Origin: Hysterangium stoloniferum
Lineage: Eukaryota; Basidiomycota; Agaricomycetes; Hysterangiales; Hysterangiaceae
Direction of reading: 5' to 3'
Assembly (NCBI GenBank): GCA_015178975.1
Contig: WHVD01000004.1
Coordinates: 1,798,001 to 1,862,000 of the forward strand
Length of the DNA: 64,000 nt
Made by a program: the position numbers and the translations under genes. Below, one piece after another: positions 26,752 through 50,562 of the stretch; the first letter of the stretch is position 1; every line of letters starts with the position of its first letter. The notes beneath the pieces are model-generated. The model searched no databases. It was given only the letters and a program-made list of their open reading frames with translations, and was not told the DNA's origin.

Positions 26752-28505
26752 ATGTCTACTCCCGATGACACGACTCCGAGCAAGGATGATATGGTACCGG
26801 TTGAAACTGTCCTCGAAGACGTTGAGGAGCGACCACCCTCGATTCCCAAAGGTCTATTGATCTCAGAAGAATTGGAGAAGATCGTTGAGAATAGAATTAA
26901 GGAAGGGTACAGTTTAAAGCTCCGAGAACAATGGAGGTGCAACGAACCCGGGCACGACATATGTTACCGGAACCCAGAAGACGACCAGCACACGCAACTG
27001 TCTGAAAACGATATAGAAGTTTGGGTGGACGAATACGTGCGCAAAATAAAATAAAATATCCTTTTCGTGTACAACTGTTGACAAACGTGGTGTTTTCAGT
27101 TTCAAGGAGAGGAAATTTTCCACCACCCACCGAGTATTGTTAAGATCCTAAAGAAGCCTCCCAATACCACATCCCACCTCAACCGATATCCCAGTCATGG
27201 CGTGGACTGTGGAACTGTCTCACAGCATGTCACAACTTCAAGTCCCGGAATTGAACCCGGCTATTTCTTTGGAGTCGGCATGGAAAGGATTGGGATGACA
27301 GTCCTTCGCAACGCAAGAATAGTCTTATTGCTGACCAAGTTGAAGATATACCAACAAATTGCGCGGAAGTCGAATCGAGACATGGTTGGCTCTAACAAGT
27401 TCCTACATAAGTACCACGCGCTTCCAAGACTTGGAAAAATAATCCAAGAAACCATTGATTTATTGAGGTGGGGATAACTCGGCGTTGAATATATATATAC
27501 TCAAAATACTACATCTTCGTAGACCCCCATATCCTCGTCAAATTCAGGAACGAGCGCAGGAAACTTTGATACAATTCCAGGTATCTACAATTGTTATGCG
27601 GGTGAGCAACAAAGCTTACCCTGCCGGGCTTATAATACAATTGGCTCGGGCCTTCTCGCAATGTCCCGGCGTTCGAGAAAGAGAATCGCCAACTTTGATT
27701 ACAACATCACTTTACGATGCTATAGCCAAATCGCCGCTACACATTAATCTCAATGGCGTTGCATCAACATTTATCGTAACCATCGCCCATTATCTCTCGA
27801 ACTTCGATTGTCAAGAGACGGCTCGCGGATTGCTTTCCGGCCTTAGCCTTATCGTGGAACACATCTCCCACGAGCGTCAGCTGTTTGTAGAAGAAGTCAC
27901 GGCGATCAGAGAGTACTTAGAATTCTGGTTACCAGCGTGCGTCGCGCCATGACATATTTTCATCTTACTCACCAACACAATGTAATAGAGAATATCCCCA
28001 CCGAATGCCTTCGCACTCTCTTTTTCATAGCCAGTTTATTGTGGATTGCCTCCACCAAGATACATGGTTTCGAGATATTGCTGGCGATGTATTGAAGGTT
28101 ACATTGCACGACATCAACCAGTTTATTGTGGATTGCCTCCACCAAGATGCAAATTTTCGATATCTTGTTGGCGCTGTATTGAAGGTTACACTGGGCGACA
28201 TCATCAATGTGAATATAACATCATCGACACCATCATATCTCAGACTGTATGAAGATGTCCTGGCCTTGGGAGTCTTCTTCAACAACAAAACGCTTCTCGC
28301 CGATCACGTTAACCAGCTGAATCGGATTTCTACTTTCATTGGGCCCCTTGTCTGGTATGTTGAAAATGTTTTATCTTCTAGTACCCTCTTACATTCACCC
28401 ATGAAATTGTCCTCCCAGTCTGATTCTGATGCAAACGAGTTTCAATTCGAAGCTTTTGACGTCTGTCATGGGAATACTAGATGTGACTATGCGGCTAATA
28501 GCTGA
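26752..28505 (+). CDS. Unknown protein, four exons, 527 residues
   Basis: Exons 26752-27036, 27100-27467, 27523-27936 and 27989-28505 join in frame across introns of 63, 55 and 51 nt; donors are GTGCGC, GTGGGG and GTGCGT, and each acceptor is preceded by a plausible branch region. The N-terminus is acidic and disordered-looking, followed by a Cys/His-containing stretch (CNEPGHDICYRNPEDDQHTQ). Exons 3 and 4 are rich in hydrophobic helices, suggesting an alpha-helical repeat fold. Exon 4 begins with a tandem duplication of 29 residues. I recognise no domain and propose no function. The weak donors make exact borders uncertain; an alternative is several unrelated frames, but three in-frame joins by chance are unlikely. 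Codon and CpG content look like host DNA. Confidence 0.55.
28032..28205 (+). repeat. 87-bp tandem duplication inside the unknown gene
   Basis: Units 28032-28118 and 28119-28205 each begin CAGTTTATTGTGGATTGCC. The period is 29 codons, so the frame is kept. The units have diverged by several substitutions, so the duplication is not brand new. Confidence 0.85.
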
Positions 28506-29455
28506 ATCCCCCGACCCCGAATCGGCGTGTATCACAGTGTGCAACCGCGAGACCATCAGCATTCTCATTCTTCTACATCAGAATTGTGACGAAATGCGCG
28601 GCTCAATCAACGAACAACATCTGGAAAGTGGGAAGATCAGTAAGTAGACCGTCTATATTGTCTAGAGCCATCTAGCTAGCTCGGCTAGACTGGGCTAGAC
28701 ACACTACTTTCGCGAGATCCTTATTTACTAGTCGGTATAAAAGCTTACTATAAATATAGGTAGTCGATGGAGGATAGGGAGTCTACATAATGGGCGTAGG
28801 CGTTCCCAGGTCCCTGACGAAGACGAAGACGAAGACATCAGCTCGCTCGAACGTTTATTGCGTTCTTTCCTTTCCATGGCCGCCCCACTTTTCACTGATG
28901 TGTCGGTAGGTCTGATTTAAACTCTATATCAGTGTTGCAAAGCAAGGTTTTCCTGACTAAGGCCATGCGCCATCAATCGGACAGAACTCCGAATGATTTC
29001 TCCTGAACAATGCCGACACATCTCACCCAAACCAGAAGGAGCACAATAGTTTTTCCCTGTATTTAATTCGCTTTTCAGCTTGATTTACAATCTGTATAAA
29101 GCTATATATTTTGAGGCAATGTAAAAACGCATACAGTCACCTTTTACCGTTGCTGCGCCCTCTGAAGGTTTTGCTTACACTCATACATGCATTGCATCCA
29201 TCCTTTACATGGTGTGAGGGACAGTGTTGGGCGGGCTCCTTAAACTAGTTCTATCCCTTTGAAAACACACAGTAGTCCAGGGTGCTTTCCCGTGTTATCC
29301 GGCCTGAAACCACAACAATTCCAAGAGTGTCACTACACCAATGTTTCATTAGGAGGAAGGTGAGACATACCCCATGTTAGAGTATGATATTATAGCTTTA
29401 TGATGTTCTATGTTACTCCCTATATTTTTCTGATATTTGTAGTATTTTTCTCAGC
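28506..29455. other. Intergenic, no gene seen
   Basis: Contains an imperfect palindromic stretch around 28660-28705 built from CTAGC/GCTAG words and a short (GACGAA)n run near 28817-28835. No supported frame. Confidence 0.4.
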
Positions 29456-30193
29456 TGTTAAGATCTAAGCTAAAAAGGGGAAGGGAGGCTCTGAGTTGGG
29501 GTCCAATGATTGGAAATGAACTAATCAGGGGGCTGATGATAGAGATTGTACTAGTCAGGAGGTCCAACTCTATAATCATAGTGGAGCCTGGTTTCAACTT
29601 ATGTATGTGTTGTGCCCCTCATATGAACTGTTAGGGTGCTCCATTATTTCAAACAGAGCAGATAGTATGATGGAGATGAAGTTCAACACTTAGCTCAGTC
29701 AACCAGGGGGCCAAAATACTGAGAGTTATATAGTAAGAGTTTGTGGCTTGCCGAGAATGTCTTCAGGAGTATGGAGAAGGGGAGAATGAGACTGGAAACT
29801 AGTAGAGGGTAATCTAAGTCAATTTTCAAACTAAAGGACTGTAGTATGCATGAAGAGGATGTATACTATGATAAGACAAATGACTGGATGGCTGATCAAG
29901 GAAGTGAAGGGTGAAATGGATCATGAGAAATTGATGACAAGGTGGGGAGACTAAATGTAATATACATACTAAACAGTATTAAAGGAGTCTGAGGTGGTGA
30001 GTGAGATATGTAAACAGAGATGGTGATGGGGGAGAGGATGGAATGGAAACTAAAAAGGGTAAGACTATAATGAAACAAGTGTCGGGGGTGCCACAAGTGG
30101 TGATACCATGAGCAGGGATTCAGACAGTGAGATGATGAAGGGTATCAAGTCCAAAACAAGTAGTGGGGGTCTGAAATAATGGGGATCCTAACA
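29456..30193. repeat. Solo LTR, G3 family
   Basis: 738 bp from TGTTAAGATC to ATCCTAACA. Flanks TCAGC (29451-29455) and CCAGC (30194-30198) differ by one transition, which fits a decayed target duplication. It is homologous to the LTR remnant at 42149-42625. Almost free of CpG, so old. Confidence 0.72.
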
Positions 30194-30981
30194 CCAGCAC
30201 TGTAGGTGCAGTAGTTAGTGGATCATGTAGTTAGGTCACTATGTATATTCCCAGGAAACTGGGTACTTAAGTGCCCAGTGCATCATTGCACCTGTGGGGC
30301 TGTAGGAAAGCAACCTTAGAATTTGCTTTCATCTCATCCCTCACAGTGTTCTAGATAGTCTTCAGCTACATAGATATTGAGCTGTTTTAACAGGTTATGG
30401 GCCTAGGCTTAAAAAAGTGAAATCTATAGCTGGTTTTCAACCCTACAGACACCACAGCACCCCCATCCACGTACACAAATACCTTGCACTTTGTTTGGCT
30501 CATATCTCAGTCAGTTGTGGATGGATCTGGATAATTCCTAGACCATTTTTTTCATCATCACTTACTCTACAAAGCTGCCATATCAAATTCTAAATAGGCA
30601 CCTGTTGAATGTCCACTACAAACTTGCTCTCTGGAGGATGGTCACACTTTATTGAATATACAAAATCTTACTGAATAATCCTCATATTTTTAAGTGAGAC
30701 TACTTCCTCTGGCCATGACAACTTATTCTATGAGTTTATATTTAATTACCTGAAATTTCATCTTTAAAATATGCATGCCCTTTTAAAATACACACAAATG
30801 ACATAGTTACACAAGATTATTTGGGTTAACCTAGATTATATGGGTTATGATGTATTCTCTTGTATACAAGCAAACTTTCAAATATATTTCATATAATTTA
30901 CCTTTAGTTGGTTTAGAGAGTTAACCAAAACTATCTGGGGTACCAATCCCCATTGTGCAATTTATTCCAAAAAAAAATAAT
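30194..30981. other. AT-rich sequence, no gene
   Basis: No coding frame and no match to Gypsy sequence. It separates the solo LTR from the truncated end of G3. Confidence 0.4.
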
Positions 30982-33029
30982 CTACAGATGATTGTGGATG
31001 ACAAATAGTTTTGCAAATTCTTGGAAGGTACTTGTGTTGTGTGTAGGTATAAAAATACTTTGTTTGGTGAATCTGTCAACAACAACTAGGATGGAAGTGA
31101 AATAATATGAGGTGGGAAGGTGCTCGATGAAATCCATGGAAATTGAGTTCTGTGGGAACTCCAGGATGGGGAGTTGCTTTAATAGATCATAGGGTTTGTG
31201 TCTCTGGGCTTTGGATTGATACAGGTGGTGCAAGACTTGCAATAGCTTTTTACAAGTGTGTGGAGGACCAGCCATGTATTCACAATGAATAATACTGAGG
31301 GTTTTGTTAGATCCATAGTGGCCAGAGATTGGGTAGTCATGAGCATGCTGAAGGATGAGCAAATGAAATGTTCTGCAGTTGGGGATGTAGATTCTGCCAT
31401 CAAGGCAGATAAAATCACTCAAGTCTCAAGTCTCAAGTCCATTGGGAGGCCAATGGGTTGTTTGGGTTGTTGAGATGGGTACTAGTAATTGGGTCATTTT
31501 GGAGGTCCAAAAGGGTGTCCTGGTGGAGTTTGGTAACATCCATAATAGTAATGCTGTGAAGTATGGGTAAGACTAGAGAAGTGGCACAAAGGGATGCCAT
31601 AATTTGAATAGAGGTGAAAATAGGCTTTAGATTATGTGGGTTAACTGTTGCATAGTCATTGGTCCCTCTTTAAGGTAGACATCCCATCATCTAGTCATAG
31701 TGTCTTGTTTGCCACCCAGGCAGCCAGGCAGAAAACAAATTACAAGGTTAAATTGGGAGAGGCATTCTGACTATCAGGCTTGCTGGCAGGTAAGAATCTT
31801 AGTAGTGGTGAAGTATTCTAAATTCTTCTGGTCAGTGACAACATCAATCAGGGTTCCTGAACCTTTGAGGTAATGACACCAGGCCTTGAACATCTCAAAA
31901 ATGGCAAGGAGTTCTTTATCATGGACATTATAATTGAGTTCTGTAGAGGTAAAGGTTCTGGAAAGGAAGGCAACTGGTCTATCAAGTGTAATAATGGAAA
32001 GAATCACAGCTAGGGCATAATCAGACACATTGGTTTCAACAATTATCAGGTGGTCCTGCCAGTGTGTAAATATGGGCACCAATATAAAGGCATATTTGAG
32101 TTGTTGAAATGCCATCCTGCATTGAGATATGGAATTCCACAGTGCCTCCTTATGAGTAAGGTGGGTGAGCAGGACCATGATGTCTGAATAGTTGTAAATG
32201 AAATGGCAGTAGAAGTTGGCAAACCCAAGGAAAGACTGAATGTCTTTCACTTTGTGGGGTTCCAGCCATTTGCAGATAGTCTGGATTTTGTCTTCATCCA
32301 TGGTGAGTCCATCAGGCCCATTATGTAACCTAGATATTTGATACAATCAACATCAAAAGAGCATCTATCACCTTGGGCAAAATGTCCATGCTTTTGGAGC
32401 CTCTGAAACACTTCAAAAACATGTTCATCATGTAGTTTCAGGTTTTCTGAATAAATGAGAATGTTATTGAGGTACATACTGTATATGATAATACAAACAT
32501 CAAGTAGGTCACCAAGGATATCATTCATAAAGTATTAGAAAGCTGCCAGAGAATTGGTGAGTCCAAACAGTATAACCAACCATTCAAAAGAACCATGGCA
32601 TGTTCAGAATGCTGTTTTCCATTCATTGCCTGTGGCAATCTGCACCAAATGATAGGCATGTCACAAATTGATCTTGGTATAAATGCAGGCAGGCTCTCTG
32701 AGGGGCATCTAAAAGGTCTGTGATGAGTGGAAGAGGGTGCATATCCTTTTTTGTGACTTTTTTGAGTCCTCTAAAATCTAAGCAAGGATACAATGAGCCA
32801 TCCTTCTTTCTGATAAGAAGAATCAGGGTGCCATAGGACAATGTGGAGGGCTATATAAAGCCAATATGAAGGTGTTCATCTATAAATGCTCTAAGGGAAA
32901 TTAGTTCTGATTGTGAGAGGGTGTAAATGTGTATGGGAGGAGGGTCTGCACCATTCTCAAGGTCAATTTTAAGATCATAGGTTCTGTGGGGGGCTAAAGT
33001 GTCAGCATGCCATTTGCTGAAGATGTCCA
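30982..33029 (-). pseudogene. G3 pol remnant, part 2 (RT to integrase)
   Basis: Minus-strand Ty3/Gypsy pol with stops and frameshifts. Recognisable in order from 33029 downwards: RT fingers (LILLIRKKDGSLYPCLDFRG), RT active site decayed to YLNN from YxDD, thumb/connection (SFLGFANFYCHFIYNY), RNase H (VETNVSDYALAVILS), integrase zinc region (HAHDYPISGHYGSNKTLS) and the first part of the integrase core (SISMDFIEHLP). It ends inside the integrase, so the 3' part of the element is gone. The protein is collinear with that of G2, its close relative. CpG is almost absent. Confidence 0.85.
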
Positions 33030-33034
33030 CAAAG

Positions 33035-34594
33035 TGTTACGACCATGTCGTAACCCTATCGGTCCCCGAGGTTATCGCCACTTATCCACAATTCAAGTTA
33101 CTGTTCAAGTCACCAATTGGAAACCATTGGCCTCCTGACACTGATGTATGCTTTTCGCGGTGATCAAACCCCATTTACGCCCATGTCAAAACATACTTGA
33201 ACTATCTGGTTAAACTCTGATACGTCCCCTTTATTATGATGATCCGCTCTATCCTATGTTTCACATATGTCTATCTATATTTGTAGTCCTCAAACTATTT
33301 CCTTTTACCGTAGTTCTGCTCTCGGTTATCATCGGCCTCCGAACTAATCATAAACTTCCCGTTCCTAGTCGAGCTTATTGTTAAAACTGTTTTCCGCCTT
33401 TCTCCCTGTTAGTATTTTCTAGACGCCTGTTACTTGTATATGAACCCGCTGTAGTTGTAGTTACTGGGCAATCAGAATATTGACTCAGAATACTCTCTTA
33501 CGCCTCTAGCAGTCTTGTACTAAGAATCCCCTCATCCACCTTCGCATGCACTTGTCCACTCTTGGTTGCCGACCCTTGGCCTGACACTTGGCTTAACCTT
33601 CGGATCGGTATCTCGCCGAAAGGAACTCATTGTTAGGATACACACACAGGGTGGGTTTCCGGAGAAACCCACAGGATATCCGGTAGGACTTGGCTTCAGC
33701 TTATAGGCTGCACCCTTGCTAGATTGTGTTGTCCAATTTCAAACGGACGGACGGGAATCCCGGGGAGTCCGGGTGGGGGTTCGTGGGTCGTAGGTCGTAG
33801 GTCGTGAGTCGTGAGTCGTGAGTTGAGATAGTCGAGAGAGATAGATGCGCCGGAGCCCGTGGGCTCCGACTAGTGCGAGCGGTCTGATAAGAGTAGGGTT
33901 TTTAGAGAGGAAAATATATTAGATTACTGGGGGGAATCTAAGCTAATTTTCTGACTGGATTGTATGTACAACATCTGCCAGTTTATATAGACCTTGGAAT
34001 GCATGACATACCGAATCCAGTAATAATGAGATGAAACGAGCAAAACATAAAACGGGAATAATAAACACCAAGTTTGGTGTTAGGAACGGGACGGAACGGA
34101 GCGGAGTCCGAATCATGACAAAGCATAACCCATAACGGGAAACGGAGCGGGAGCGGAGTCCTAAATCGTGACAGGTCATTTGACTAAAACGGGAACAGGG
34201 CTCGATTAGAGCAGTGATGGGATTCTGAGCAGGTTCCAGTGACTGATGCATGGGACGAAGACAGACATAGACAGAGACGGGGTCCGGGGAAGGTCCGGTG
34301 ACTGATATGTGTCTTAATGAGGTCGAACGTAACAAGTCTTGATGTAACGGAGTCGGGGTGGGAAATCCTATAAACAGACGATTGGTGCTTGTAGCGCGTG
34401 GGGGCGTACAAGTTAGTGCCCGGAGTCTGGCGGGATTGTCCAGTCGTAACACTCATTAGGATTAGTCTTCACCTGCCTGAAATTTAAGGACACTCAAGGC
34501 ACATTTGCGAGGGTGCAGCACATAAGCTGAAGCCAAGTCCTTCCGATCGGTCCCTGTCGGCCAACCGACATCAGTCAGTTTTCAGTTCTTAACA
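33035..34594 (+). repeat. G2 left LTR, split by a solo LTR
   Basis: LTR parts are 33035-33630 and 34457-34594, together about 734 bp, starting TGTTACGACC and ending AGTTCTTAACA. The insertion at 33631-34451 is described separately. Confidence 0.9.
33631..34451. repeat. Solo LTR, family L copy 2, nested in the G2 LTR
   Basis: 821 bp, TGTTAGGATA to GTCGTAACA, with perfect target duplication CTCAT (33626-33630, 34452-34456). The right G2 LTR lacks it at the matching place. It keeps more CpG than the other family L copies, so it is the youngest of them. It contains a short tandem repeat of 7-8 bp units (GTCGTAG/GTCGTGA) at about 33785-33830. Confidence 0.92.
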
Positions 34595-34632: not shown

Positions 34633-35873
34633 ATGCCTCCGAGAAAAAAAGATGTCAAGCCAAGCGGCAAAGCAGAATCTTCCACTCTCAAGTCTCCTTT
34701 CCTGTATACAGCCTGAGCTACTCAGAGAACCCCGCTACCAGAAACCTCCGAAGAATCTCGCTTTGTGGAGATTACCGGCAATGCTGAAGAAGTAACTGAA
34801 GCAACTGAACCCGAAGCAACTGAAGAGGTTAACAATCAACCAGCTCCGGAACACGAACCCGAGGATGGCGACCAACCTCAGGCTAGTGGTTCCAAGAAGT
34901 CCATGAAAAAGAAACCGGCTCTCGACCCTGAAGAGACATGGGAATTGTTCTCAGGTACCCTAGGATCCCTTAACGAATTCCTTAAAAGCAATATCAAGGA
35001 AAAAGAACCTGGGCAAACCCGAGTTAACAAACCCGAACCATTCACTGGCTCAAACCCGAAGAAATTGCTGACATTTCTTATGCAATGTCGATTCAACTTT
35101 CGGGACCACCTGGCTGCATTTGCAACGGATGACCGAAAGGTAAATTTTGCACTCTCTTACCTTAAGGACTCCGCAGCAGCCTGGTTTGAACCAGCATTCT
35201 CTGGCCTCACCTCCAAAGACCCCAATTGGCTTTACGATTGGGATGCCTTTGTCGAGGAACTCGAAACAAACTTCAGTCCCTACCACCAAACCGGTGATGC
35301 CGAAACCACGCTTTCTAATCTCAAAATGAAACACCCAGCACATCACTGATTACATCGTCCAGTTCAACAACCTCACCGCGTGTTGCGACTGGGGCGATTT
35401 GGCCCTCCATTACCAGTTTTACTCTGGCCTCCCGTCTCACCTCAAAGACGAAGTTTCTAAAGGAGAGACTGGCAAACCAAAGACTCTCCCCCTCATGCAT
35501 CAAAAAGCCCAAAACGTGGATGCCCGATACTGGGAACGGCGTTCGGAAATTAGTCGCGAAACCCCCTCGGACAAGAAATCATCGGACAATACATAAGAAC
35601 GCCAACAAGTCTGGTAATCAAAACACCAACAACAGTGGGAACTCGACCTCTGATAAGAAGTCCGAAAACAAAGGGTCTAATGACAAAAAAGACAAGGGCA
35701 AACAGTCAAATAAGTCTCAAGATAAAGACAAACCCGACTTAACTGGCAAACTCGGCTCTGACAGCAAGCTCCTACCACAGGAAAAGCAACGTCGAATGGA
35801 CAACAACCTTTGCTTGTTGTGTGCAGATCCTGGACACCGAGTCGCTGCATGCCCAAAAGCCACCAAATCCTGA
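34633..35873 (+). pseudogene. G2 gag, decayed
   Basis: Starts at ATG 34633 (MPPRKKDVKPSGK), 38 nt after the LTR. An in-frame TGA at 34714-34716 and later frameshifts near 35345 and 35530 break it into three frames. The middle has the usual gag core (EPFTGSNPKKLLTFLMQC, then AAWFEPAF and DWDAFVEELETNF). The end is lysine- and asparagine-rich and carries an intact CX2CX4HX4C zinc knuckle (CLLCADPGHRVAAC) near 35812-35853. Gag would form the particle. Confidence 0.85.
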
Positions 35874-35963: not shown

Positions 35964-38900
35964 TTGAATCTCCTCACACAATGGAAAATTGTCACCTTAA
36001 CGCATCCGCCCTGTATGATCCCAATTCCTTGTTCATCAATCTTACTTCAGAACCCCTCAGGAGTCTCACTTTTTGAGCTCTCATAGATTCAGGTTCAACC
36101 CATTGTTTTATAGATACAAGTTTTTCCCAAAAAAATCAGTTAAAAACCTATGCAATAGACCCAATTCCGCTCCGACTTTTTGATGGTACCTCTAACTCCG
36201 TAATCTCGCAAGCCTGCGAGCTCCGACTTTGGTTCCTGTGTGGAACGTTTCAGACAGTTACATTTTTTGTAACACAGTTGGACCCAAGTTGCTATGTGGT
36301 TCTAGGACATAACTGGCTCACCCGCTACAATCCGTTGATTGATTGGGTATTGGGCAGTATCCATTTCCGAACCCCATCAGCACCCGATACGACTGGTCCA
36401 TTTCCGCCTGTTTTGGCAAATATAGCCTCTACAGCACCTCTGGCCCCCATGGCAAATTTGAGTTCTCCACCGCCCATCTCTCTAATAAACGCTGCAGCTT
36501 TTATGAGAGCCATCAAGTTGGACAGCTCCCGAGCATTTACAGTCAATCTTAAAGTTGATGAAGTCACTGGCTGCTTTGCAACCCTGGTGACCAAACCGAT
36601 CGCAGATTTGGAAGGTGTTCCAGAAAAATACCATGAATTTGCAGATGTCTTCAGTAAACAAAAAGCCGATCGACTCGCCCCTCACAGGCCTTATGATTTG
36701 AAAATTGATATTGAAGATGGTTCACATCCGCCCCTAGGCCCAGTTTATCCTCTCTCGCAGTCTGAACTATCAGCTATCTGAGATTTTTGGACGAACATTT
36801 GGCTATAGGTTTTATCCGACCCTCAAAGTCTCCTTATGGAGCCCCTGTCCTATTTGTTCGAAAAAAAGACAGTTCCCTTCAGCTTTGCGTTGACTTTCAA
36901 GGACTAAATGTGATCACTCAAAAAGGTAAGTATCTGTTACCACTAATCTCTGATTTACTTGATGCCCCTCGGAAGGCCTGAATATATACAAAGATAGACC
37001 TCAAGCATGCCTATCATTTGGTTCGGATTGCTGAAGGCGACGAATGGAAAATGGCTTTTCGCACTTGCTATGGCTCCTTTGAATGGTTAGTGATGCCTTT
37101 CGGTCTCATTAATGCTCCATCAGTCTTTCAACATTTTATCAATGATGTCTTTTCCGAACTCCTCGACGTCTTTGTCATTGTGTACTTAGATGACATCCTC
37201 ATATTCTCCGAAGATCCTACACTTCATGATGAACACATTCGTGAAGTCCTCCGAAGACTCCGAAAACATGGTCTTTTTGCGAATGGTAAAAAATGTTCCT
37301 TTGATGTCAACACAGTTGAATATTTAGGTTTTATGATGGGACCTGATGGTCTCCACATGGACGACTCTAAAAGTCAAGTCATTCAAGATTGGCCAGAACC
37401 CCAAAAGGTAAAGGATATTCAGTCCTTTTTAGGCTTCACCAATTTTTATCATCATTTCATTCACAACTACTCAAAAATTACTGTTCCACTCACTCGTCTT
37501 ACTCATAAAGATGCCCCGTGGAATTTCTCCAAAGAATGCCGATCGGCATTCCAAGAATTGAAAAGTGCATTTACATCTGCCCCTATTTTGTCACACTGGA
37601 AGCCTGATGTTCAACTCATTGTGGAAACTGATGCCTCGGACTATGCGCTTGCTGCAATATTGTCCATTCTGGACACCGATGGTGAAGTACACCCAGTAGC
37701 TTTTCTGTCTCACACGTTTTCAGCGCCCAAGCTCAACTACGATGTTCACGATAAGGAACTACTTGCAATATTTGAAGCTTTCAAGACATGGCAACATTAT
37801 TTGGAAGGATCGACTCACCCGATAGATGTTATAACCGACCACAAGAATTTAGTTTACTTTTCAACCACAAAACTTCTCACCCATCGGCAAGCCCGATGGT
37901 CCGAATACCTGTCTGCTTTCAATATGGTAATTCACTTCTGTCCCAGCCACCTTGGTGGAAAACCCAACGCTATGACTAGACGATGGGACGTCTATCCTCA
38001 AGAGGGGAGTAGCGACTATGCCACAGTTAATCCGCATAATTTCAAGCCTATGTTTTCATCGGAACAACTGTCCGCGTCTATCCGAGCCACTTACCTCATT
38101 CATCAGTCTTGCGAAGTGTTATCCTTATGGATACTGAAAAGTTACATCAAGATATACTATCAGCAATTCCATTAGACCCAGTCACCAAAGCACACCTCAA
38201 TAACCTGTCTGACCCTGATCAACCCCGATGGTCATTGGACTCACAAGGTTTCATTAGACTTGACAATTGCATCTATGTACTGGATTCCGACACCCTTCAG
38301 CTGCAAATCCTACAACATAAGCACGACCACCCGATCTTGGGACATTTCAGCCTCAATAAGACCCTCTCACTCATTAGAAGAGAATATACATGGCCCGGCA
38401 TCTGAAACTTTGTTAAACACTATTGCAAATCTTGCACAATGTGTCTACACTCTAAATCACAGCGATACAAACCTTATGGCCTACTCAAACAATTACCGAT
38501 ACTGGAAAAACCCTGGAACTCGATTTCTATGGATTTCATCGAGCACCTACCAGCATCCGAAGGTCACACAGCAATCCTAGTTGTTGTGGATCGGCTCACA
38601 AAGCAAAGTATCTTCATTCCAACATATGACACAATAACATCTGTACAGTTAGCTGAATTATTCGTCACCCATGTATTTTCCAAGCATGGTGTTCCATCAC
38701 ATGTCACATCCGATCACGGATCTGAGTTTGTCTCTCACTTTTTTAGGTCACTCGGAAAAGCACTAGACATGAAATTACATTTCACTTTGGGATATCACCC
38801 AGAAGGCAACGGCCAAACTGACACATGAATCAAACCTTGGAACAGTACATTCGTGTCTATTGTAACTATCAACAAGACAATTGGAAATCACTACTACTGC

Positions 38901-39602
38901 TAGCCGAATTCGCATATAACAACACACTGAATGCCACTACTGGCATTTCGCCTTTCTTCACAAACAAAGGCTACAACCCCAACATTGCAATCCACCCAGA
39001 ACGCGATCTCACATCCACCCATGGTCAAGACTTTGTTACAAACCTTGATGAGAGAACTTCGTAAAACTATCACAATGGCTCAAGAACGATACCAATGGTC
39101 TGTGGATAAGAATCGACTTCCGCCTCCTGATTTCAAGATTGGAGATCGAGTATTCGTTAAAGCTGAGTTTTTCCAAACTACTAGACCCTCTAAGTAGCTC
39201 TCTGAAAAATATTTAGGTCCTTTTGAAGTTATAGCACAAGCCGGCACACTTTCATGGATGCTTCAGCTCCCCAACAACATGCGTGCAGTGCACCCGGTAT
39301 TTCATGTATCTATGTTAGAACCTTGTGTTGCTAACAGTATACCGGATCACATACAGCCACCACCTCCACCCGTGATCATTGATGGAGAACCCGAATTCGA
39401 GATATCAGAGATCCTAGACTCAAAAATCAATAATCACCAACGCTCATGCAAATTACTTTATTTGGTTAAATGGGCTGGCTATGAAGGTACAGATGAAGAA
39501 ACTTCATGGATCCTAGCTACAGAGCTCGGTAATGTCTTGGAAATCATTTTAGGGTTTCACCAAGCTTATCCGAATAAACCTGGTCCTCTAAATTCTTTAT
39601 AA
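35964..39602 (+). pseudogene. G2 pol, decayed (protease-RT-RNase H-integrase-chromodomain)
   Basis: Protease motif IDSGSTHCFIDT near 36085; RT with [11 protein letters not shown] and an intact YLDD near 37180; RNase H (VETDASDYALAAIL) near 37620; integrase zinc region (HDHPILGHFSLNKT ... CKSCTMCL), core (SMDFIEHLP, TSDHGSEF, HPEGNGQT) at 38530-38830; chromodomain (FEISEILDSKI ... YLVKWAGYEG) at 39400-39600. The frame has TGA at about 36779, 36979, 38403 and 38825, one TAG near 39195 and a few frameshifts. Where the codon can be inferred from relatives the TGA sites were Arg CGA. The catalytic residues that I can see remain, which points to recent decay. Confidence 0.88.
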
Positions 39603-39653: not shown

Positions 39654-40562
39654 CTATGATTTGTTTGCCTCTCCAGCTTCCGAACCTGCTCCCTCACTGA
39701 CAGCCACTGATACCACTCCACTGACCTTTTCCGATACCCCAATCTCGTGCCCAACTCCATCACAACTCGAGACTTCTAAATACTGCTCAAGTTGACCTCC
39801 AAGGGATTCGATAATGCTGGTCTGCTTCTCCAGCCTGACACCCAAAAGTTGCAACTGCTCGGTCATGAGCCCTTGTTGTCACAATGTCTTGAATCAGAAC
39901 CTTGTCGCCTCCGAGATGTAAGTCCACATAAGGCAGTTTTGCTCTTCCAGAGCATCGGCCTGTCGCTCCTGGAATGATCCGCCGGCTCCCGGGAAGATGC
40001 ATCCAAGCTTCTGATTGGCGCACTCTTGACAAGTGCAGCCCCGACCATTGGCCCGAGGATGGCAAGTTCAACCCCATTTCGTGCACCGGTTGCACTTAGG
40101 GTCATTTTCATGCCCCACCTTGGGAGCCTGCCTTTGTTTCTATAGGAAAATTATTAGAAGAGTCTTTATTTAGGAAACCAAACCTACCTTGGGGCTCGAC
40201 AGCCCCGGTGCATCCTCGTCCTCCTCTTCCTCTTCGTCATTGGACTCCGAAGGCATCGCAGCCTTGTGCTAAAAGAAAATTAGCAAGGTTCACAAAAGAT
40301 ACGGGAGCTGACTTACCTTCCCCTCCCACTTCTTCTTTGCCACCTCCTCTCGTGCCCGATCAGCCTCCTGCTGCTTTTTCTTCACAAGCACTGCATCCCA
40401 CTGTTTGCGCACAGCCTCTTCCTCCACCTGTTTCTTCTCCTTGACCTCGATGGCTGCCAGCTCCTCCCTCTCTTTCCGCTCCTCCTCTTCACGTGCCTTT
40501 CTCTTCTGCTCAAGCAACCGATGACATTCCTGCACGCTAGGTGGCCCACTTGGTCCCGACAT
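39654..40562 (-). pseudogene. Antisense spliced gene in G2: coiled coil plus Zn2Cys6-like cysteines
   Basis: Three minus-strand exons (40562-40317, 40268-40188, 40139-39654) join in frame across two 48-nt introns with GTAAGT/GTAGGT donors and TTAG/ATAG acceptors; 270 residues. Exon 1 begins MSGPSGPPS and is a charged coiled coil (REEEERKEREELAAIEVKEK). Exon 2 is acidic. Exon 3 has the array CX2CX6CX10CX2CX6C, the spacing of fungal Zn2Cys6 regulators, then a second leucine-rich helix. Three TGA codons interrupt exon 3 and each would be CGA one transition back. The gene runs opposite to gag-pol, between pol and the right LTR. The spacing suggests zinc or DNA binding, but the basic residues usual between the cysteines are few. 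It might regulate the element or the host. Confidence 0.7.
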
Positions 40563-40789
40563 GGGAGCGACAGTCAATCAAACCGGGAATGGTTTCGACC
40601 CCGACCCTATGGTCATGGTGGTCAAGGGAAGAGAAGTAAAGAATCAAGCGCCAGTACCCCTCAAATTCTTATATGTAAATTCTTGCTGAGTCACATGATG
40701 TTTTGACACACCAAACCGTACCCGACAAGTTTTACGTATGGGATCTAGATTTTCGGCCTCCTTGGGATCTCAGCCAAATGGGGAGATAC

Positions 40790-41529
40790 TGTTATGACCG
40801 TGTCATAACCCTATCGGTCCCCGAGGTTATTGCCACTCATCCACAATTCAAGTTACTGTTCAAGTCACCACATCGGAAACCATCAGCCTTCCAACGCTGA
40901 CATATGCTTTTTGTGGTGATCAAACCCCATTTACGCCCACATCAAAACATACTTGAACTATCTGGTTAAACTCTGATACATCCCCTTTATTATAATGATC
41001 TGCTCTATCCTATGTTTCACATATGTCTATCTATATTTGTAGTCCTCGAACTATTTCCTTTTACCATAGTTCCACTCTCAGTTATCATCGGCCTCCGCAC
41101 TAATTATAAACTTCCCATTCCTAGTCAAGCATATTGTTAGAACCGTTTTCTGCCTTTCTCCCCGTTAGTATTTTCTAGATGCCTGTTACTTGTATATGAA
41201 CCCACTGTAGTTGTAGTTACTGGGCAATCAGAATATCGACTCAGAATACCCTCTTACACCTCTAGCAGTCTTGTACTAAGAATCCCCTCATCTGCCTTCG
41301 TGTGCGCTCGTCCACTCTCGGTCGCTGACCCTTGGCCCAACACTTGACTTAACCTTCAGTCCTGATCAGTATCTCACCAAAAGGAACTCGTTAGGATTAG
41401 TCTTCACCCACCCGAAATTTAAGGACGCTCAATGGACATTTGCGAGGGCGCAGCACATAAGCTGAAGCCAAGTCCTTCCAATCGGTCTCTGTCGGCCAAC
41501 CGACATCAGTCAGTTTTCAGTTCTTAACA
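40790..41529 (+). repeat. G2 right LTR
   Basis: 740 bp, TGTTATGACC to AGTTCTTAACA, uninterrupted. Most differences from the left LTR are C/T or G/A, many at CpG. It carries the conserved LTR core in inverted orientation at 41446-41475. Confidence 0.92.
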
Positions 41530-48929: not shown

Positions 48930-50562
48930 ATGCCTTCATTCAAATCTTTCATCGACAGATTCAAAGACTCCACTTCCAAAGTTTCTGAAAATTATTTGAC
49001 CGCCCGTGCTCTCGACGAGCGGGACGTGTATCGTTATCGTCGCCAGTACGGGGTGAATCTCGGTGAGTACAGAGAGGATGTTTTGGTTTAAGCGCAGAAA
49101 ATTAACACGAAGATAAAGGATCTTGGTTTGTCTTGGAGAAGTGGATATGTGGGGATCCTTTCAAGAACGCTGATTCTCCAGGTTCGAGCGACTTCGATGT
49201 TGCAAAGGGAAGGGACGCTCGTGCGGTCCTGGAGCGTCATTGGGATACATGGATAACGACGGAGGACTGGGAGTGGATTGCGGCCCGAGGGCTCAATTCA
49301 GTTCGCTTGCCAGTGAGTAACTTCGTATTTGTGCCAAACGCAACTCTAAAAGCCTCATGGTTTTAAGATTGGATATTATCATTTGTATGCAAAAGATCCG
49401 TCTGTTGTGCAAGGCACACCATTTTCAGATTTAGGAGCGGTGTTTGAGGGTGCCTGGCCACGTATTATGCATGCTGTACAAAAGGCTTCGACATATGGCA
49501 TAGGCGTTCTGATAGGTGAATTAGGACCACAGGCACATTTACCTAATCGAATTTCAACTCATAGATCTACATGCTGCCCCTGGCAAACAAAACGGAGACT
49601 CCCACAGTGGGGTAAACGGCCAAGTCGAATTTCACAAGCGAGCGAATCTCTCTCGTACGATACATGTTCTCAAATTACTAGCCACCACCTTTGCAGACAT
49701 GCCTAACGTCATCGGACTTGAGCTCGTGAATGAACCTCAGAACAGAGACAACCTGTATGACTGGTACGAATGTGCGCTGAACACTATCCGCGAGGCAGTC
49801 GGTCAAGATCTGCCTCTCTACATCGGCGATGCGTGGAATACACACCAGTATGCCTCACTAATCCAAAAACGTCAGGACTTCACCGTTCTCGATCATCATC
49901 TTTATCGTTGTTTCACACATGAAGACCAACAGCTCACGGGTGACCAGCATGCCGCTGCTCTACCTCCAGGGGCCCTGGTTGACTGCTCGTCCAAAACAAG
50001 AGGAAACCTTGTAGTAGCAGAATTCTCTGCTGCCCTGAACCCTAACTCGATCCGAAGTTCCGATCCTGCGGAACAGGACCGACAGAGGCGGGTCTTTGCT
50101 AGAGCGGAATTGAAGACGTTCCGGCAGTGCTGCGGAGGCTGGTGGTTCTGGACGTACAAAAAAGATGGGTGGGATGCAGGATGGAGTCTCCGGGATGCCG
50201 TACGGGCGGAGGTCATGCCTGAGAGGTTTGGTCTTCTAAGAGCAAGCTCACGCCCAAATGATGAGGGTAGGCGAGATGCTGAATGTTCTAAACGCCTCTC
50301 AGAGCATCAGACCTACTGGTCTAAGTTTAAGTCGTCTCATGGCTATGAACATTGGAGATTTGAATTGGGGTTTAAAAAAGGTTGGGATGACGCATTTCTC
50401 TTCTTTTCGTTTTCTCCGAAAACGGTCGTCGAGACCTCTGTCTCGGAGATCGGGTTTATAGGGCAATGGCTTCAGCGGAGGATCGCCGAGCATCTTGCGG
50501 AGAAGGGGAACAGTAAATATGTGTGGGAATTTGGTGAGACAACAGTCTGTATCGCGATATAA
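48930..50562 (+). CDS. GH5 exo-beta-1,3-glucanase-like glycoside hydrolase, 490 residues
   Basis: Cleaves beta-glucan, probably in cell-wall turnover. Exons 48930-49062, 49119-49312, 49368-49515 and 49565-50562 join in frame over introns of 56, 55 and 49 nt. The sequence has the fungal glucan 1,3-beta-glucosidase pattern: GVNLGSWFVLEKWI near residue 40, ARGLNSVRLPIGYYHLY, DLHAAPGKQNGDSHSG, the acid/base Glu in GLELVNEPQ, DHHLYRCF, and a probable nucleophile Glu in VVAEFSAALN, then WWFWTYKKD. The N-terminus (MPSFKSFIDRFKDSTSKVS) is not a signal peptide, so the enzyme is likely cytoplasmic or leaves by another route. An extra C-terminal part of about 100 residues follows the catalytic domain. 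Both catalytic glutamates are present. Confidence 0.9.

Follow-up and report, generated by a model that had tools for sequence, protein, structure and literature searches.

The Host Element and its Antisense Gene

The window, i.e., the whole 64,000-nucleotide stretch of Hysterangium stoloniferum DNA that was analysed, contains a decayed copy that belongs to a large family of Ty3/Gypsy chromoviruses, recognised as such by protease, reverse transcriptase and RNase H, integrase, and chromodomain being found in this order with an LTR on either flank (Table 1). An additional gene, composed of three exons and two phase-0 introns, is located on the minus strand between the end of pol at 39602 and the 3′ LTR and reads towards the pol end. 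Relative to the 3′ LTR, about 820 nt of surplus sequence is present in the 5′ LTR (window 33416-34450), perhaps as a nested insertion.

Table 1. Features of the window copy and its antisense gene (window positions).
Feature	Position	Strand	Remarks
5′ LTR, interrupted by ~820 nt of extra sequence	33035-34594	+	repeat comparison within the window
gag region, in pieces	34717-35873	+	gag, Ty3 capsid, and zinc-knuckle matches weak, all under the Pfam cut-off
pol, protease piece	36077-36781	+	RVP_2 above cut-off
pol, reverse transcriptase and RNase H	36982-38175	+	RVT_1 and RT_RNaseH above cut-off
pol, integrase core	38406-38828	+	rve above cut-off
pol end with Tf2-1-type SH3 and a chromodomain, converging on the antisense gene	39198-39602	+	SH3_Tf2-1 and Chromo above cut-off
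Exon 3, zinc-cluster-like motif, then long predicted helix	39654-40139	-	three TGA and a C-terminal deletion in the window copy
Six-cysteine array CX2CX6CX10CX2CX6C	39999-40094	-	238/240 cysteine codons kept over 40 copies
Intron 2, phase 0, 48 nt, GTAGGT..TAG	40140-40187	-	
Exon 2, acidic Asp/Glu-rich linker	40188-40268	-	78, 81, or 84 nt long across 40/40 copies
Intron 1, phase 0, 48 nt, GTAAGT..TAG	40269-40316	-	same place in subfamily B, sequence largely different
Exon 1, 300 nt from the conserved ATG, long Glu/Lys-rich stretch	40317-40616	-	ATG in 40/40 copies
TATA-like box ATATAA in the gap between gene and LTR, 53 nt ahead of the ATG	40669-40674	-	in 39/40 copies
Conserved 37-nt non-coding block adjoining the 3′ LTR	40742-40778	unstranded	GGCCGAAA direct repeat in less decayed copies
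3′ LTR, TG..CA	40790-41529	+	repeat comparison within the window

The first-pass annotation of this locus had described two 48-nt GT..AG introns joining three exons in frame on the minus strand and, in the resulting product, a CX2CX6CX10CX2CX6C array, both of which were recovered as described. The gene start, which had been placed at 40562, was relocated upstream to an in-frame ATG at 40616 that is conserved in every one of the 40 copies compared, with the context CCACCATGA in 38 of them. Read from this start, the window copy contains four TGA stops, namely the three in exon 3 reported earlier and a fourth that appears with the longer frame, while the conserved TAG stop is absent on account of the C-terminal deletion. 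Both introns retain GT..AG borders in 38/40 copies at lengths of 46 to 59 nt, and the ATATAA box was also present in the three subfamily B copies inspected. The spliced antisense gene is hence a property of the element family; its absence from other copies had been named as grounds for abandoning the proposal, and the finding of related ORFs in those copies speaks clearly against doing so.

Copies, Subfamilies, and Decay

A DNA search of the same genome, in which 40 of 287 candidates were scored, provided 40 near-full-length copies including that of the window, all of which were retrieved; the 39 others among those scored are 83-91% identical to the window copy, and six of the 40 are wholly open from start to stop. 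Within the best 150 of 511 candidates scored in a protein search with exon 3, a young subfamily A (exon 3 mostly about 85-91% identical to the query, often open) was distinguishable from older subfamilies with identities down to 68%. A chromodomain search uncovered another young subfamily, B, in which the exon 3 protein shares 55-64% identity with those of the other groups. Further retrieval comprised 20 copies of subfamily A, 20 older copies, and 20 from chromodomain matches that were not listed by the protein search. Among the 20 subfamily A copies, 12 had the antisense gene wholly open, as did three of 14 loci (L089-L102) belonging for the most part to subfamily B, apart from an A-like one and one without exon 3; L059 was counted as not open owing to a shifted splice projection though it is free of stops, and another copy of B is likewise stop-free yet altered at its start codon. 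Open copies therefore exist in three subfamilies. Several copies encode identical antisense exon 3 proteins, some of them beside open pol frames of 1302 aa. Given such identical copies and pol frames open up to this length, recent activity seems likely for no fewer than two subfamilies.

The 40 copies contain 52 in-frame stops in total, 46 of which are TGA, and for 45 of these 46 one or more of the other copies have CGA at the codon in question, a pattern suggestive of CpG decay. The alternative that TGA is decoded as an amino acid was rejected on the same observation. Indels were scored relative to a single reference in 38 copies, leaving aside the reference itself, L045, and the last part of exon 3. 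In exons, 8/24 were multiples of three and 16/24 were not, against 12/164 multiples of three in introns; the exon frameshifts can be explained by the decay of many of the copies.

Selection on the Antisense Frame

The proposal that the frame had recently been under constraint, originally based on the few nonsense codons of the window copy, was borne out by the pairwise diversity of the 40 copies, which amounts to 0.086, 0.086, and 0.188 at the first, second, and third antisense codon positions, respectively. The corresponding values were 0.088 for the pol end and 0.13 for the introns, the latter lying below the third positions (0.19) in ungapped columns. A comparison of one A with one B copy gave dN/dS values of 0.117, 0.121, and 0.135 for exons 1 to 3 and 0.052 for the pol tail, all of them rough because the synonymous distance of the gene between A and B is near saturation; the ratio below 1 that had been suggested as a check on an antisense ORF between pol and the 3′ LTR was thus obtained for each exon. 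The same two groups differ at 57, 64, and 152 first, second, and third codon positions over 291 codons, with 195 residues identical, and both introns interrupt the frame at identical places in the two groups although their sequences are for the most part dissimilar. No sign of positive selection was observed in this pair of copies, where dN/dS is low throughout.

A chance ORF was rejected by virtue of the third-position excess, the dN/dS values, and the conserved introns. A sense-strand gene was likewise dismissed despite a stop-free sense run of 229 codons in one copy, given that the constraint tracks the antisense codon positions. With the start, introns, and cysteines conserved, open copies available, dN/dS at 0.12-0.14, and the position fixed at 127 of 150 pol ends (see below), the antisense gene is an accessory gene under selection, and its reality is hardly in doubt.

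Association with pol and Evolutionary History

Among the best 150 of 2837 chromodomain candidates, the antisense gene was located just beyond the chromodomain in 127, on the opposite strand in all 127 and at a median gap of 106 nt. For the remaining 23 there was no antisense match among those listed, and each of the nine inspected retains a recognisable piece of the gene; conversely, 59 antisense places had no adjoining chromodomain among the best 150 of 2837. The gene accordingly resembles an aORF-3R, the antisense accessory gene of LTR retrotransposons, in two respects, being situated between pol and the 3′ LTR on the opposite strand and retained under constraint in most copies (of the best 150). 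Exon 3 was not recognisable in L092, L107, and L108, where the spacing to pol also differs; since the pol frames of two of these elements are still 1302 and 1286 aa long, the antisense gene may be dispensable in cis.

Trees were constructed for the pol tail and for exon 3 from 47 copies, being those of 57 in which both segments are nearly complete. Both trees set subfamily B apart from every other row, each time with full support; the finer branches, compared informally, differ in places. In view of this concordance, the gene was probably already present in the element before A and B separated. The pol tail differs at 12% of sites between subfamilies, and exon 3 distances are 2.2 to 2.7 times those of the pol tail in every between-group comparison. 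A recent import of the B gene from a distant element had been considered on account of its higher synonymous distance relative to pol, together with LTRs that are 82% identical, and was dropped because the trees agree on the B split and the exon 3 excess is universal between groups.

The Encoded Protein

In the protein of about 290 residues, exon 1 contributes a charged stretch and exon 2 an acidic linker, while exon 3 supplies the six-cysteine motif and the long helix after it. An alignment of 17 proteins, subfamily B among them, shows no substitution at any of the six cysteines. Zn2Cys6 domains (PF00172) have a spacing within the range CX2CX6CX5-12CX2CX6-8C, into which the array fits. The spacing had earlier been taken to define a Zn2Cys6 regulator; on its own, it does not define the family. 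Possible support beyond spacing came from an hhalign comparison with a profile built from 19 Zn_clus stretches in the genome of the element (one of 20 retrieved having been excluded, and some rows extending into non-coding sequence). The probability was 86 with exon 3, rose to 89 when only the first 60 columns of exon 3 were used, and dropped to 58 when the motif stood alone; the six cysteines were in register. None of 200 column shuffles in which the cysteines were held fixed reached the real score of 29.4, their median being 16.3 and the best a close 28.5.

The Pfam results are less favourable to the Zn2Cys6 assignment. Three of the six intact proteins were scanned and gave no Zn_clus match at E<=10, a limit that is narrowed by the HMMER filters dropping most matches above about 0.1, and the curated cut-off was not attained; one of 14 motif segments matched Zn_clus, at E 0.26. 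Across whole genomes, Zn_clus, a fungal family, gave 42 matches in the genome of the element itself versus 0 in 14 control genomes, which suggests a fungal host. An AlphaFold2 model of exon 3 from another copy predicted a helix from 54 to 123 (pLDDT 93-98 over residues 71-120) and short helices at both CXXC pairs within a motif of pLDDT about 50, and a Foldseek search with this low-confidence model yielded a single match at E 9.9. Sequence searches of the PDB were empty for the motif and gave only noise for exon 3, no relative was found among 88 pattern matches in viral contigs, and no bZIP was present among the Pfam matches at E<=10 in the three intact proteins. As the profile match is positive while Pfam is negative and the modelled fold of low confidence, the motif is best called zinc-cluster-like. 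The Zn2Cys6 regulator proposed at first therefore stands in its spacing and its likeness to the host profile and falls short in Pfam recognition and in the confidence of the modelled motif; a genuine zinc-cluster DNA-binding domain is nonetheless considered probable.

Comparison with Known Systems

Grande, RIRE2, Retand, and PvRetro13 of plants are known to carry extra antisense ORFs between pol and the 3′ LTR, as is Boty of Botrytis and Sclerotinia (PMC7264820), and the initial premise that antisense genes are out of the ordinary in LTR elements was consequently too strong. The plant aORF-3R (maize Grande gene23, rice RIRE2, Silene Retand, and PvRetro13) share the position and orientation of the fungal gene and, as presented in these accounts, resemble it further in that most copies of a family keep the ORF and a regulatory role is suspected (PMC7264820, PMC11963269). 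A promoter upstream of gene23 of Grande is mentioned (PMC7264820, PMC11963269), and the antisense ORFs of Retand are stated to encode, in many cases, proteins with DNA-binding capability (PMC11963269); the term “zinc finger” is absent from the main text of PMC7264820 and PMC11963269. The plant genes differ in their hosts, the fungal gene has two introns, and the two are likened by position and description rather than by sequence.

The gene brtn of Boty-like retrotransposons in Botrytis cinerea was reportedly the subject of a study by Zhao et al. in 2011. It is likewise described as an extra antisense gene in a fungal LTR element with a chromodomain (PMC7264820, PMC8365987, PMC4227169). Its host is an ascomycete, and the likeness is drawn from the descriptions in citing papers, not from a comparison of sequences. 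Further afield, HBZ/APH of the primate T-lymphotropic viruses is portrayed as the product of a spliced antisense transcript and a mostly nuclear regulator, as proposed here for the fungal protein, but HBZ is a bZIP protein with a promoter inside the 3′ LTR (PMC10186651), whereas the fungal gene has no bZIP match at E<=10 in the three proteins scanned and its TATA-like box lies outside the LTR.

The fungal Zn2Cys6 regulators (PF00172) share the six-cysteine spacing, the long helix thereafter, and a positive profile comparison with the present protein; the latter differs from them in lacking a Pfam match in the intact proteins scanned and in being encoded by an element, in antisense. VANDAL elements are DNA transposons. 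The VANC proteins of these Arabidopsis elements would be alike solely in a possible working mode, that of an element-encoded, sequence-specific protein (PMC10398659). Among the titles and abstract openings of the mostly open-access literature searched, none concerned an antisense gene of a basidiomycete Gypsy element that is spliced or has a zinc-cluster-like motif. An antisense accessory gene at this place is known, and the fungal gene represents a new variant in its two introns, zinc-cluster-like motif, and conserved TATA-like box.

Proposed Expression and Role

The reading preferred here, with a probability of roughly 0.55, is that of an accessory gene convergent with pol, the transcript of which would start from its own promoter, lose two introns, and be translated into a nuclear DNA-binding regulator of about 290 residues. 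An antisense transcript is predicted because the splice signals are found on the antisense strand, and the TATA-like box before the ATG, kept in nearly all copies, suggests a promoter between the gene and the 3′ LTR, outside the LTR itself. Following removal of the two short introns, the protein would be expected from its domain plan to enter the nucleus and to bind DNA as a dimer through the zinc cluster, the long helix being suited to dimerisation. It might then regulate the transcription of its own element, and the chances that the regulator acts on the element itself are judged to be even. The best candidate target is the 37-nt block, which by eye is identical in most inspected A and B copies and altered in the window copy. 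This identity stands in contrast to the near-saturated synonymous sites of the antisense genes in A versus B. The block may instead serve reverse transcription, as it adjoins what we presume to be the polypurine tract.

A more specific function, regarded as rather unlikely, would be that of an anti-silencing factor resembling VANC, in which the spliced zinc-cluster protein, expressed from its own antisense promoter, recognises the 37-nt block in the non-coding DNA of the element and holds silencing off in an arms race with CpG methylation by the host, so that the retrotransposon would possess a sequence-specific means of anti-silencing or autoregulation. The dominance of CGA to TGA changes in nonsense decay (45 of 46 TGA among 52 stops) would be expected if the copies were CpG-methylated, the faster divergence of exon 3 relative to the pol tail between groups is what an arms race could give, and the block beside the gene contains a repeated CGG-type half-site, VANC proteins being described as binding the non-coding regions of their own elements (PMC10398659). 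Set against this are the low dN/dS, which does not indicate positive selection, and the alternative use of the block in reverse transcription.

Slightly less probable again is a cofactor of replication or integration, acting as a nucleic-acid chaperone or in packaging or target choice and not regulating transcription. Charged helices with a small cysteine domain would suit RNA binding as well, and the missing Pfam Zn_clus match fits such a protein; on the other hand, promoter-like sequence of its own and an antisense position do not favour a structural protein, and the similarity to the Zn_clus profile may exceed that of cysteine spacing. The capture of a host gene carried along as a role-less passenger, for which the Zn_clus genes of the host (the 42 matches above) would be a possible source, is very improbable: purifying selection, which a passenger would not be expected to display, was observed between subfamilies, the constraint persists across groups whose pol tails are 12% apart, and the gene is present at 127 of the 150 best pol ends; a separate host copy was not seen either, an argument of little weight since copies of the element saturated the searches. 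Least probable of all is an antisense RNA that matters by itself through silencing or interference, the frame being incidental, for although convergent transcription over the pol end could yield double-stranded RNA, as raised for plant elements (PMC7264820), the codon-position bias, dN/dS of 0.12-0.14, invariant cysteines, and maintained introns require a protein.

Significance

The gag and pol genes are held to be sufficient for retrotransposition (PMC7264820), and yet a further gene, interrupted by introns and read from the opposite strand, has been kept under constraint by this family while its subfamilies split. If the regulator gene is expressed as its structure implies, the introns would leave the antisense transcript only, so that the element would be transcribed in both directions while its sense genomic RNA carries the introns unspliced. 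The family offers an abundant and recently active case for testing the role of antisense accessory genes, and its existence raises the possibility that certain fungal gene models containing cysteine arrays of this kind are in fact genes of retrotransposons.

Other Features of the Window

A second Gypsy pol remnant is located at about 30982-32770 on the minus strand, within which 191 nt show 71% complementarity to the part of the main element that encodes reverse transcriptase; no antisense gene was noticed by eye in the stretch beyond it (28300-31100). Overlapping plus-strand frames are also present at window 49106-50562, which we take to resemble a glycoside hydrolase (cellulase-like) gene.
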